Assembly: GCA_030427735.1 (NCBI GenBank)
Contig: JAUIBP010000001.1
Coordinates: 1-64,000 of the forward strand
DNA length: 64,000 nt
Source of the DNA: Bacteroidia bacterium
Lineage (GTDB): Bacteria; Bacteroidota; Bacteroidia; Flavobacteriales; Flavobacteriaceae
Direction of reading: 5' to 3'
This document shows positions 60,428-64,000 of the stretch, one piece after another (positions within the stretch are counted from its first letter, which is position 1; each line of letters starts with the position of its first letter). The notes beneath the pieces are model-generated. The model ran no database searches and was not told where the DNA came from. It saw nothing but the letters and a program-made list of their open reading frames with translations. The translations under genes and the position numbers were made by a program.

Positions 60428-61981
60428 CTATTTATTGTTCTCAGGATTTGCTGGCTGTTGCTGCACCTCGGCTGGCGTTAAAAGATCTATATAAGCAGCA
60501 CCTATACCATTAATCACATCGCTGGCAATCATACTCTGATACCCTAATTGCTCTACAACTATATCTGCCGATTTACCATGCAAATACACACCAAAGCACG
60601 CTGCCTGTAATGGATTATACCCTTGACCTAAAAGTCCTGTAATTATTCCCGTTAGCACATCGCCAGTACCAGCTGTAGCCAATCCAGGATTTCCTGTTAC
60701 ATTTATATATAACTTATTATTATAAACTGCAGTTGTATTAGCGCCTTTTATCACTAATACAATCTGATATTTTTTAGCAAACGCTTTAGCTTTTGTTAGC
60801 TTGTCAAAATCATCATCCCAAGCGCCAATCAATCGCTCCAACTCTTTTGGGTGCGGTGTTAAAATACTGTCCTTTACAAGATGTTTAAGCAATTTAGGTT
60901 GAAGCGCCAAAATATTGAGTCCGTCAGCATCTATAACCAAAGGTTTAGTATTGGTTTTCAAAAAAGCTTCAAATGCCACTATAGTGTCTTGAGCAACTCC
61001 TAACCCCATGCCAACACCTATCGCAGAAAAATCTGTTGTAAAACGAATAGCGGTTATATGAGTTTCATTAGTATCGGTTAATACCATGGCTTCTGGAAAC
61101 GCCGTTTGAAGCGGCAAATAACCACATTTAGGCACATAGGCGGTTACCAAACCAGATCCAGAAGTTAACGCTGCTCTAGCAGCCAATTGCACCGCCCCTA
61201 TCTTACCGTAACTTCCTCCTATTAATAATACGTGTCCAAAAAGTCCTTTATGCGAAAATTTTGTTCTTGGTTTGTACCACTGCAATACCTCGTGCTTACC
61301 AATAACATAAGCTTCGGTTTCGGTAGCTTGAATATATTCTGGATCGATACCAATATCTAAAACTTCCCACTGTTCGATATATTTTGCCGTATCTGGCAGA
61401 AAAAACACCAATTTAGGAGTTTGAAAGCTCAGTATTAAATTAGCATGCAATACCTGAGATTCATCTTCTGGTAATTTGTCTGTAAATAAACCTGAAGGAA
61501 TATCTATTGAAATGGTTAATGCTGTTGAGGCTTTTAAAAGTGCAAACAAGGCTACAATCCAAGAGGCAATAGGTCTGTTTAAACCTACACCAAAAATAGC
61601 ATCTACAACAATATCGTTTGGCCCTATTTCTGGGAAATCGTCTTTACTTTTAATAGACACTGGCCAGTCTTTAGTGTTTTGTTTTAAACGCTCGTAATTA
61701 ATTAAAAAATCTTTAGAGCGTTTTTCGCTAAAATCTACAATGTATGTTTTTACATGATAACCATGATTAACCAAATGTCTGGCAACCACCAAACCATCGC
61801 CACCATTGTTGCCAATGCCACAAAATACATGAATAGGTACAGGAGCTCCTTGCATACGGGAATCTATCCAATTAAATATGGCTAGCCCAGCACGTTCCAT
61901 TAAATCGGCGGAACTTATATTTTGTTTCTGAATGGTAATTTTATCCCCTTCATAAATTTGTGCTTTCGAAAATATTTTCAT
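60428..61981 (-). CDS. nnr: Bifunctional NAD(P)HX epimerase / ADP-dependent dehydratase
   Basis: The N-terminal half (residues ~1-220) is the YjeF_N epimerase with G-I-G-N-N-G-G-D-G-L-V-V-A-R-H-L and D-A-I-F-G-V-G-L-N-R-P. The C-terminal half is the ribokinase-like dehydratase with H-K-G-L-F-G-H-V-L-L-I-G-G-S-Y-G, L-T-P-H-P-K-E-L and N-P-G-L-A-T-A-G-T-G-D-V-L-T-G. The enzyme repairs hydrated NADH and NADPH. The length of 517 residues fits the fused form usual in bacteria. Confidence 0.96.
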   Translation of the reverse strand: MKIFSKAQIYEGDKITIQKQNISSADLMERAGLAIFNWIDSRMQGAPVPIHVFCGIGNNGGDGLVVARHLVNHGYHVKTYIVDFSEKRSKDFLINYERLKQNTKDWPVSIKSKDDFPEIGPNDIVVDAIFGVGLNRPIASWIVALFALLKASTALTISIDIPSGLFTDKLPEDESQVLHANLILSFQTPKLVFFLPDTAKYIEQWEVLDIGIDPEYIQATETEAYVIGKHEVLQWYKPRTKFSHKGLFGHVLLIGGSYGKIGAVQLAARAALTSGSGLVTAYVPKCGYLPLQTAFPEAMVLTDTNETHITAIRFTTDFSAIGVGMGLGVAQDTIVAFEAFLKTNTKPLVIDADGLNILALQPKLLKHLVKDSILTPHPKELERLIGAWDDDFDKLTKAKAFAKKYQIVLVIKGANTTAVYNNKLYINVTGNPGLATAGTGDVLTGIITGLLGQGYNPLQAACFGVYLHGKSADIVVEQLGYQSMIASDVINGIGAAYIDLLTPAEVQQQPANPENNK

Positions 61982-62117
61982 CTATAAAATTTTAGATTTT
62001 TTCATTATGATTTTTTCAGTTTTAAAGCTATAAAATAGATTAAAACAAACGTTTACGCTTCATTGTTGAATAATCTGTAAAAAATCGCAATACATTTTTT
62101 TATTACTGTAAAAGTAA

Positions 62118-62125
62118 TACATTTG
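62118..62125 (+). promoter_or_regulatory. -7 box before the thr leader
   Basis: TACATTTG is a perfect TAnnTTTG. It puts the transcript start near 62131, about 14 nt before the leader ATG at 62145 and about 210 nt before thrA. The -33 region is T-rich without TTG. Confidence 0.6.
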
Positions 62126-62144
62126 AGAAGTATAGCAGTTTAAA

Positions 62145-62255
62145 ATGTATAAAACAACGCGCATTTTCCATTCTATTTCAACACCATTTCTTTATGGTGC
62201 GTTAACTATTATTATTACTTCTATTACACGTATTATTACCCCTTGGGGTAATTAA
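62145..62255 (+). CDS. Thr/Ile-rich leader peptide of the thrA operon
   Basis: A 36-codon ORF lies between a -7 box and the aspartokinase-homoserine dehydrogenase start. Codons 21-32 read T-I-I-I-T-S-I-T-R-I-I-T: ten of twelve are Thr or Ile, the end products made from homoserine. In all there are 7 Thr and 9 Ile in 36 residues. This is the makeup of the enterobacterial thrL attenuator peptide. Two hairpins overlap the ORF: CACCAT/ATGGTG (62182-62199) and TTACCCC/GGGGTAA at its end. A ribosome stalled at Thr or Ile codons would change the folding. The attenuation role is inference. Confidence 0.72.
   Translation: MYKTTRIFHSISTPFLYGALTIIITSITRIITPWGN
62236..62251 (+). promoter_or_regulatory. 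Attenuator-like hairpin at the end of the thr leader ORF
   Basis: TTACCCC-TT-GGGGTAA is a perfect 7-bp inverted repeat that spans the last codons of the leader. The following sequence (TTAATTATATATCTT) is AU-rich but not a clean U-tract, so it may be a terminator or a pause/anti-structure. Confidence 0.5.
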
Positions 62256-62341
62256 TTATATATCTTCCGTCCATACAACCTGCAATATCGGGTTACGAAT
62301 TCAAAAAAATTAGGCTATTAAATTATACAATCTAACTAAAA

Positions 62342-64000
62342 ATGAAAGTATTAAAATTTGGAGGTACGTCTGTAGGATCCTCAAAAAACATCAATAATGT
62401 CGTATCAATACTAACCAATTATGCTAAGACAAACAAAGTAATATGCGTGGTTTCTGCTGTTGGAGGCATTACCGATAAATTACTGGAAGCAGGCCAATTA
62501 GCACAAACCAAAAACAGCAGTTATAAAGATACCTTTAACACCACAAAAACAATTCATTTAGATATTGTTAAGGAATTGATTCCTACCAACAACGCAGAAG
62601 TTTTAAAAACTGTTGAAGCGACTTTAAATGAATTAAAAAACCTATTAGACGGGATTTATCTCATTAATGAGTTATCGCCAAAAACATCGGATAAACTGGT
62701 GAGTTTTGGAGAGCTGCTCTCGTCTTATATTATAGCAGAAACGCTTAAAGATCGTGGTGCAAATGCCGAACGCAAAAACAGCCAGGAATTAATTACAACC
62801 AACTCTAATTTTACCAAAGCCGAAGTTAATTATAACATTACCAACGGGCATATAAAAGACTATTTTAAAGATAGCACGTTCGATATTACTATTTTACCAG
62901 GATTCATTTCAAAATCTATTACAGGAGAAATCACAACACTTGGCCGAGGTGGCTCCGACTTTACCGCAGCCATTGTAGCCGCTGCCCTAGAAGTAGAGCA
63001 ATTAGAAATTTGGACCGATGTTAGTGGTATGTACACCGCCAATCCTAAGTTGGTAAAACAGGCCATGCCTATAGATAAGTTATCGTACCAAGAAGCCATG
63101 GAGCTATCGCATTTTGGTGCAAAAGTACTGTACCCACCAACTGTACAACCCGTTTTAAGTTTACAAATTCCAATTCATATAAAAAACACCTTAGAGCCAG
63201 AGGCAGTTGGCACTATTATATCTACCAATAGTAATACTACAAACACCGCAAAGGGTATTACTAACATTAGCAATGTTGCCTTACTTACATTGCAAGGTAA
63301 TGGTATGGTGGGTATTCCTGGGTTTTCCAGACGTTTATTCCAAACCTTAGCTCAAGAAAAAATCAATATCATTTTAATAACGCAGGCCTCTTCAGAGCAT
63401 TCTATTTGTTTTGGTATAGACGAAAAAGATGCTGCCTTAGCGAAATCGGCTATAGATACTGAATTTGAAAATGAAATTTCCTTAAAAAAAATAGATCCTA
63501 TTTTAGTTGAAGATAACTTATCTATAATCGCTTTAATTGGAGACAACATGAAAAGTCACCAAGGCATTAGCGGTAAAATGTTTAGCGCCTTAGGAAAAAA
63601 CAACATCAATATTCGTGCTATAGCTCAGGGAGCATCCGAAAAAAACATCTCAGCAGTCATTGCTCAAAATGATGTTAAAAAGGCCTTAAACATTTTACAC
63701 GAAGTCTTTTTTGAAGGCAACATAAAACAGCTTAACGTCTTTATTACAGGCGTTGGAAATGTAGGCGAACGTTTGGTTGAACAAATTAAACAACAACGCA
63801 AATATTTAAAAGACAATTTAAAAATCAATTTACGTGTTGTTGGTCTTTCCAATTCCAGAAAAATGCTTTTCAACGAAGATGGTCTGTCGCTTAAAGACTG
63901 GAAACAACAACTAGAGCAAGACGGACAAGCAGCCAGCCTAGAAGGCTTTTTAGACACCGTAAAATCGTTAAATCTACGTAACAGCATTTTTGTAGATGTT
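62342..64000 (+). CDS. thrA: Bifunctional aspartokinase / homoserine dehydrogenase (3' end outside window)
   Basis: The frame is open from the ATG at 62342 to the window edge (553 codons). The aspartokinase part starts K-V-L-K-F-G-G-T-S-V-G. It has G-F-I-S-K-S-I-T-G-E-I-T-T-L-G-R-G-G-S-D (residues ~182-201) and two ACT domains near 310-460 (I-T-Q-A-S-S-E-H-S-I, I-R-A-I-A-Q-G-A-S-E). The homoserine dehydrogenase part begins near residue 463 with F-I-T-G-V-G-N-V-G-E, the NAD-binding loop. It makes homoserine for Thr, Met and Ile. Regulation by Thr through the ACT domains and by the leader peptide upstream is likely. The thrB and thrC genes may follow beyond the window. Confidence 0.95.
   Translation, partial: MKVLKFGGTSVGSSKNINNVVSILTNYAKTNKVICVVSAVGGITDKLLEAGQLAQTKNSSYKDTFNTTKTIHLDIVKELIPTNNAEVLKTVEATLNELKNLLDGIYLINELSPKTSDKLVSFGELLSSYIIAETLKDRGANAERKNSQELITTNSNFTKAEVNYNITNGHIKDYFKDSTFDITILPGFISKSITGEITTLGRGGSDFTAAIVAAALEVEQLEIWTDVSGMYTANPKLVKQAMPIDKLSYQEAMELSHFGAKVLYPPTVQPVLSLQIPIHIKNTLEPEAVGTIISTNSNTTNTAKGITNISNVALLTLQGNGMVGIPGFSRRLFQTLAQEKINIILITQASSEHSICFGIDEKDAALAKSAIDTEFENEISLKKIDPILVEDNLSIIALIGDNMKSHQGISGKMFSALGKNNINIRAIAQGASEKNISAVIAQNDVKKALNILHEVFFEGNIKQLNVFITGVGNVGERLVEQIKQQRKYLKDNLKINLRVVGLSNSRKMLFNEDGLSLKDWKQQLEQDGQAASLEGFLDTVKSLNLRNSIFVDV

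Follow-up and report, generated by a model that had tools for sequence, protein, structure and literature searches.

Upstream of the thrA gene of the flavobacterium studied here lies a conserved control element whose kind, with a leader peptide, is known. Judged from the sequence, the leader very probably senses the supply of threonine and isoleucine through ribosomes and switches the operon on. Leader-peptide attenuation in flavobacteria has already been suggested in print; the apparently new part is an architecture that lacks a strong intrinsic terminator, and the switch therefore probably operates by another route.

Candidate leader upstream of thrA

The features of the locus are listed in coordinates of the window, that is, the whole 64-kb stretch of DNA that was analysed.

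62095 to 62125, + strand: predicted promoter, consisting of a T tract (62095-62101) and the -7 element TACATTTG (62118-62125)
62108 to 62125, + strand: extended promoter core, sequence GTAAAAGTAATACATTTG
62145 to 62255, + strand: predicted leader peptide ORF, 36 codons, TAA stop at 62253-62255
62182 to 62199, + strand: hairpin P1 within the leader ORF (CACCAT/ATGGTG), from folding; covarying helix 1
62205 to 62240, + strand: regulatory run, ten Thr/Ile codons per 12 (codons 21-32)
62235 to 62252, + strand: hairpin P2 (arms ATTACCC and GGGTAAT, loop CTTG), overlapping the last codons and adjoining the stop; -7.1 kcal/mol
62253 to 62276, + strand: G-poor, weakly structured linker, an AU tract followed by the pyrimidine motif CTTCCGTCC (62264-62272), from the position profile of 68 relatives
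62277 to 62294, + strand: hairpin P3 (AACCTG/CGGGTT), from folding, with no U-tract after it; covarying helix 4
62342 to 64000, + strand: thrA, bifunctional aspartokinase/homoserine dehydrogenase I, extending beyond the window

The encoded peptide of 36 amino acids, MYKTTRIFHSISTPFLYGALTIIITSITRIITPWGN, has no match in Pfam. Codons 21-32 read T I I I T S I T R I I T, and the TAA stop comes directly after hairpin P2. We compared all stop-free 12-codon stretches in the six frames of the window (31,896 on the forward strand and 32,470 on the reverse strand, 64,366 in total). The leader run is the only one with ten Thr/Ile codons; nine are found in five stretches, two of them the run's own neighbours. 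Genes thrB and thrC lie downstream of thrA, outside the window, and thrA is the head of a thrABC cluster. A preliminary description of this DNA, which had noted the 36-codon ORF with its Thr/Ile run just upstream of aspartokinase-homoserine dehydrogenase, was correct in this observation. A shortage of threonine or isoleucine, the end products, is what the leader would sense. The divergent neighbour (60428-61981, reverse strand) encodes a bifunctional NAD(P)H-hydrate dehydratase/epimerase.

Conservation of the leader and the regulatory codons

The thrA gene was matched in 201 of 248 genomes of the family, and upstream regions were taken from 149 of these, mostly from best matches (the window and 29, 80 and 39 loci). 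We added 11 loci from a search of genome contigs and 12 same-family loci, seven of which repeat genomes already included. Removal of seven identical upstream regions left 165 non-identical ones, in which two genomes are counted twice via a shifted start (L073/L168 and L078/L169, all without a leader).

The sequence test for the leader, referred to as type B, consisted of a P2-like sequence and at least four Thr/Ile among the 13 codons before it. An in-frame Thr/Ile run adjoining P2 at the leader stop was found by this test in 136 of the 165 regions, compared with 4 of the 165 reverse complements and a mean of 1.2 in shuffled sequences; here and in the promoter, hairpin-window, linker-fold and thrA-start tests the shuffles keep base composition only. 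The P2-like sequence alone occurs in 139 regions, in 16 reverse complements and in 6.1 shuffles. Thus the conservation of Thr/Ile codons with a variable remainder, which the preliminary description had proposed to look for in other Flavobacteriaceae, is indeed observed.

The enrichment is specific to the reading frame. In the 136 leaders the Thr/Ile share of the 12 codons before P2 is 53% in frame and 5% and 3% in the other frames. All four threonine codons are used (ACA 216, ACT 206, ACC 71, ACG 50), and isoleucine is encoded mainly by ATT. Codon-by-codon frequencies were obtained from 102 leaders (including two duplicates), themselves chosen by P2 and at least four Thr/Ile per 13 codons. Counted back from P2, Thr/Ile codons occupy the first two positions in 92% and 80% of these leaders and positions 3-12 in 28-74%, dropping to 12-24% at positions 13-18. 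A second rise, to 25-46% at positions 19-23 near the leader start, is unexplained by the model proposed below.

The ORF is unbroken from the ATG through P2 to the stop in 127 of the 136 family members, with a median length of 34 codons. By eye, the layout is common to the 11 loci from genome contigs. The leader peptides end in TLWG, TPWG, TPLG, TR or TLLG. Since these ends are dictated by the letters of P2, in its stem and its loop, it seems to be the RNA hairpin rather than the C-terminus that is conserved.

Conserved hairpins

Folded on its own, the window sequence gives z -0.22 for the whole leader and z 0.02 for the P2 stretch, in both cases no better than shuffled sequences, and thus the structural case depends on comparison with relatives. 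In an alignment of 23 leaders made without regard to structure (A2; sequences hand-picked for gap-free alignment), 91.7% of the cells in P1, P2 and P3 are paired, and double changes occur in 27 cells, compared with 7.7 in shuffles. In an alignment of 68 leaders fitted to the structure (A3), there are 204 double-change cells against 58 in shuffles, and every pair of P1 and P3, eight in each hairpin, is affected by double changes. When the column pairs of the 68 aligned sequences are ranked by corrected covariation, the top ten all fall within P1 or P3. The outer pairs of P2 change compensatorily; its core is nearly constant and so gives no covariation.

P2 is the most stable and most constant of the hairpins (median -7.2 kcal/mol, compared with -4.65 for the P3 window and -3.95 for the P1 window). 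Folding better than in shuffles is seen for the P1 window in 92 of the 136 leaders and for the P3 window in 104. The median spacing in the 68 leaders is 33 nt between P1 and P2 and 26 nt between P2 and P3. RNAalifold applied to a mixed alignment of 40 sequences recovered only P2, the columns of P1 and P3 being misaligned.

A covariance model of the same 23 hand-picked leaders (R1) was searched against 100 sources; of the first 120 loci, 21 were not included (two being duplicates), nor was any later locus. It matched 68 of the 100 at E of at most 0.1, 45 of them outside the model. The window was not used in building R1 and is matched with E 3.5e-4 among the sources and E 0.004 in the whole genome. 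The model is narrow: under strict filters it finds 2 of the 119 genomes of the order, and it misses same-family members that are positive by the sequence test. A second match in the same genome (E 1.16) was considered as a thr leader and rejected, as by eye there is no Thr/Ile ORF or amino acid gene adjacent to it.

Predicted promoter

The motif TAnnTTTG at 62118-62125 matches the consensus of the flavobacterial-type -7 element. Its end (62125) and the leader ATG are separated by 19 nt, and a transcription start near 62130 is plausible. A sigma-70 scan marked no promoter at 62095-62125. The motif is found 70-135 nt upstream of P2 in 119 of the 136 family leaders, compared with 6.6 in shuffles, in agreement with the earlier placement of the transcript start before the leader. 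A longer core, AAA[AG]TAATAC[AT]TTTG, is present in 61 of the 136.

The promoter spacer contains a dyad, TATTAC/GTAATA, that could perhaps be a regulator site. The promoter core GTAAAANTAATACNTTTG (62100-62125 of the window) has one match in the same genome at no more than one mismatch; the reversed pattern gives two, and thus the count alone says little. We also considered a promoter downstream of the leader. TAnnTTTG after P2 is absent from the window and occurs in 21 of the 136 leaders against 7.8 in shuffles. At these loci (e.g. L018, L022, L039) it lies between P2 and thrA and by eye overlaps the 5' arm of P3 in several, and an internal promoter is possible there. Twenty of the 21 fall in L018-L070 and look alike, a kinship judged without a tree.

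Comparison with known systems

Like the enterobacterial thrL leader, the element has a short ORF with a run of threonine and isoleucine codons before thrABC. The enterobacterial thr leader has a GC-rich hairpin with a U-tract. Here, unlike thrL, there are P1, P2 and a G-poor linker, and the peptide is by eye unrelated to thrL, as had been stated before. No Rfam leader family, Thr_leader (RF00506) included, matches: the window region yields five chance hits at E values of at most 10, none of them to a leader and each far under its curated score; ten relatives gave one CRISPR-repeat hit, also under the curated score. A paper of 2004 on attenuation in bacteria reportedly lists candidate attenuators in Bacteroidetes/Chlorobi too, in which case the general idea is probably older.

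The best precedent for an arrangement without a terminator is Rho control at the leader stop of the tna or speF type. In the E. coli tna operon, a ribosome held at the leader ORF tnaC blocks Rho beside the leader stop. There, arrest is caused by free tryptophan acting through the nascent peptide; here, it would be caused by starvation at the cognate codons, with Rho as the presumed partner. The orf34 leader of Salmonella speF is also similar: according to PMC6386406, translation of the short ORF interferes with Rho-dependent termination, and amino acid codons set the speed of the ribosome. It differs in having arginine codons, in the regulated gene, speF, and in an RNase G branch.

Attenuation was described in the preliminary description as best known from enterobacteria. 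This is true. However, PMC9723704 already reports strong clues, from transcript data, for leader-peptide attenuation upstream of amino acid operons in Flavobacterium psychrophilum. These structured 5' regions come from the same family and attenuation was proposed for them; the section on them gives no architecture, and thrA is absent from the main text. The main text of PMC2965389 contains no word starting with Bacteroid or Flavobacter. PMC4833913 treats leader genes near start codons, and PMC7366714 mentions leader-like short ORFs in Bacteroides thetaiotaomicron. Among the matches listed in our literature search, no title or abstract describes a thr leader without a terminator.

Region between the leader and thrA

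In the first 110 nt after P2, a strong intrinsic terminator is present in none of the 136 leaders and a weak one in three (0.7 weak in shuffles). Extending the test over the full distance from P2 to thrA (median 88 nt in the 136 leaders) and into thrA gave the same result, no strong and three weak. No intrinsic terminator is marked on the forward strand anywhere in the 64-kb window, and there is no U-tract after P2 in it. The caution of the preliminary description, that the missing U-tract might mean another mechanism, is supported. Its central proposal, ribosome-mediated attenuation, stands as regards the conserved Thr/Ile leader; the textbook form lacks support, as neither a strong intrinsic terminator nor a covarying terminator/antiterminator pair was found.

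In 133 of the 136 leaders, C exceeds G in the RNA downstream of P2 (16.6% C, 7.3% G). The same holds for 10 of 19 thrA upstream regions outside the first leader set, a control that includes the weaker or displaced leaders L057, L087 and L114 and the ordinary attenuator L125. Upstream of 23 genes of the window, thrA included, C makes up 12.7% and G 11.6%. In the spacers of ordinary leaders, G equals or exceeds C in 10 of 12 cases (L203 is outside this list).

The linker together with the freed 3' arm of P2 folds better than the shuffled mean in just 25 of the 136 leaders. Folding worse than shuffles argues against an antiterminator formed by P2 and the linker and in favour of a landing site that is single-stranded. 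Single folds of some of the 39 sequences folded do pair the 3' arm of P2 (GGGGU) with the pyrimidine motif; given the same 25 of 136, this pairing was set aside as an antiterminator. Alternative pairings of P3 were likewise set aside: the 68 aligned sequences yield isolated column pairs only and no helix, although an invariant pairing would give no covariation. The best of these isolated pairs, 131/217, has a corrected score of 17.0 and is paired in 85% of sequences compared with 71% expected. Sequestration of the thrA start was considered and discarded as well, as its mean pairing is 0.45, compared with 0.51 with shuffled flanks, and is higher than with shuffled flanks in 39 of the 136. In the 68 relatives, T is raised to 40-72% at 1-5 nt after P3, and L006, L034 and L037 have 6-7 U there.

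Possible modes of regulation

It is highly likely that ribosome stalling controls thrA. The sensed signal would be charged Thr-tRNA and Ile-tRNA, read in cis by a ribosome on the 36-codon leader behind the RNA polymerase. When threonine and isoleucine are plentiful, ribosomes would quickly reach the stop at P2 and depart. The Thr/Ile run and the weakly structured linker, with C in excess of G, would then be exposed, and Rho would load and end transcription near P3 or in early thrA. When either amino acid is short, the ribosome would halt in the run beside P2, covering the 5' arm of P2 at the edge of the G-poor region and blocking Rho entry, and transcription would continue into thrA. P1 could serve as a pause hairpin, giving the ribosome time to catch up, and P3 could be the site where Rho overtakes the polymerase.

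Features of Rho-type leaders are indeed present, namely the lack of a strong intrinsic terminator and, in composition only, little-structured RNA with more C than G beside the leader stop. The genome contains a Rho gene (PF07497, E 2.5e-35). However, Rho sites are uncallable from sequence, and C reaches only about 17%. The linker, about 24 nt, is rather small for a Rho site if the Thr/Ile run is left out; P3 is conserved though Rho needs no such hairpin; the 6-7 U after P3 in L006, L034 and L037 make a weak intrinsic terminator possible there; and two of the 12 ordinary spacers (L199, L234) likewise have more C than G. Hence we rate Rho dependence of the termination step as tentative, at slightly under even chances. 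The reading as a whole, a Thr/Ile-sensing attenuator of thrABC with tna-like Rho-dependent termination, is in our view evenly balanced between right and wrong.

On the other hand, termination could be intrinsic after all, with P3 acting as a weak terminator when the leader is translated through and a stalled ribosome permitting an alternative fold. The conservation of P3 in position (median 26 nt after P2) and in pairing and the T enrichment past it, up to 6-7 T in some relatives, are consistent with this. However, the terminator counts in the 136 leaders and on the forward strand of the window go against it, and the arms of P3 covary with each other, all other pairs being isolated and forming no helix. 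The freed P2 arm gives less structure than shuffles, and in the same genome the terminator test is passed by the leaders of his, ilv and phe. We consider classical attenuation unlikely. Another possibility is that the polymerase is stopped or made to pause by P2 itself, which is GC-rich and precedes a conserved AU tract (UAAUUAUAUAU); a ribosome stalled just upstream would keep P2 from forming, no antiterminator would be needed, and the CUUCC motif and P3 would be accessory. P2 is indeed the most constant and most stable hairpin and adjoins the regulatory codons, and the AU tract is strongly conserved in the 68 relatives. However, it has no U run, the conservation of the linker motif and of P3 would be unexplained, and a ribosome at the stop codon would presumably mask P2 too. 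This mode is rather unlikely.

Post-transcriptional action, of the ermC or speF kind, would involve a stalled ribosome that shields the mRNA from a nuclease or alters thrA translation. The ermC gene is a precedent for such action by a stalled ribosome. The conserved single-stranded pyrimidine motif and the downstream hairpin could form a processing site, and in Salmonella speF, according to PMC6386406, control by Rho, folding and RNase G is joined. The lack of extra pairing at the thrA start goes against this explanation, and for translational coupling the median 88 nt from P2 to thrA is a long distance; an effect on mRNA decay stays compatible. Taken with both branches, this explanation is quite improbable. 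Finally, the ORF could be Thr/Ile-rich by accident and thrA be controlled otherwise, e.g. by a regulator at the promoter core, which is conserved beyond the -7 element. The conservation in 136 of 165 regions, the frame-specific codons and the covarying hairpins disfavour a chance ORF so strongly that we regard it as barely credible.

Ordinary attenuators and distribution of the element

The same genome has leader ORFs, picked by eye, upstream of hisG (MLFIQVHHHHFHTCTQAS, L236), ilvD (MYMRKTIVNIISIIVVEIRTLG, L237) and pheA (MQDMQNTNFTYFNWFYFFFS, L239). All three contain cognate codons followed by a hairpin with a U-tract and pass the strong terminator test. The phe terminator overlaps the assumed gene start region. 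The his stretch prefers a different, longer helix, formed with sequence 3' of the terminator hairpin, and thus two folds compete there, the terminator being one of them. Ordinary-looking thr attenuators were observed inside the family (L125, L157, L160) and outside it (L199-L203, L213, L234); the L160 terminator was identified by eye and fails the strong test, and the U-rich tail of L203 is weak. These leaders resemble the thrA leader of the window in having an ORF with cognate codons before a biosynthetic gene. They differ in the GC-rich hairpin, the U-rich tail and, mostly, a spacer with at least as much G as C. Ordinary attenuation is thus accessible to these bacteria.

The type-B arrangement was not found in 29 of the 165 family regions, and thus the element is dispensable. 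These 29 include the three ordinary attenuators, one R1 match farther upstream, three cases of P2 with fewer Thr/Ile codons, and some genes behind another gene. At L057 the R1 match (E 0.0011) lies about 240 nt upstream of thrA, with extra sequence between the leader and the gene. At L097, L100, L106, L108, L109, L139 and L147, thrA is right behind a gene that by eye resembles a threonine dehydratase, and it has no leader.

Outside the family, 11 of 52 regions were positive in the type-B test, L221 among them being doubtful; five loci without a clear start were omitted. The 10 clear cases among the 52 (L182; L178, L180, L188; L185, L187, L190-L193) belong to one further family within the order, one further family within the class and a single family outside the class. 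Genes without a leader occur there too. The element may represent an old and widespread Bacteroidota class of starvation-sensing attenuators without an intrinsic terminator, in which three hairpins and a G-poor linker pass the decision to Rho or to an undescribed signal. The same operon would then have switched classes within the phylum and even within one family, other attenuators of the same genome staying ordinary. We see the arguments for and against this generalization as equal in weight.

If it is true, amino acid attenuation has a second output mechanism in a major phylum, one invisible to terminator-based genome scans, and such switches are under-counted. The thr leader would also be a natural test case for Rho-dependent attenuation in Bacteroidota, and the genome provides a clean comparison, as a single cell combines a leader lacking a terminator (thr) with three ordinary leaders (his, ilv, phe).

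Three loci of the family labelled f8 (L183, L189 and L196) have Thr/Ile leader ORFs with a different stop sequence, CACGGGGT or TACGGGGT, and possibly represent a further variant.
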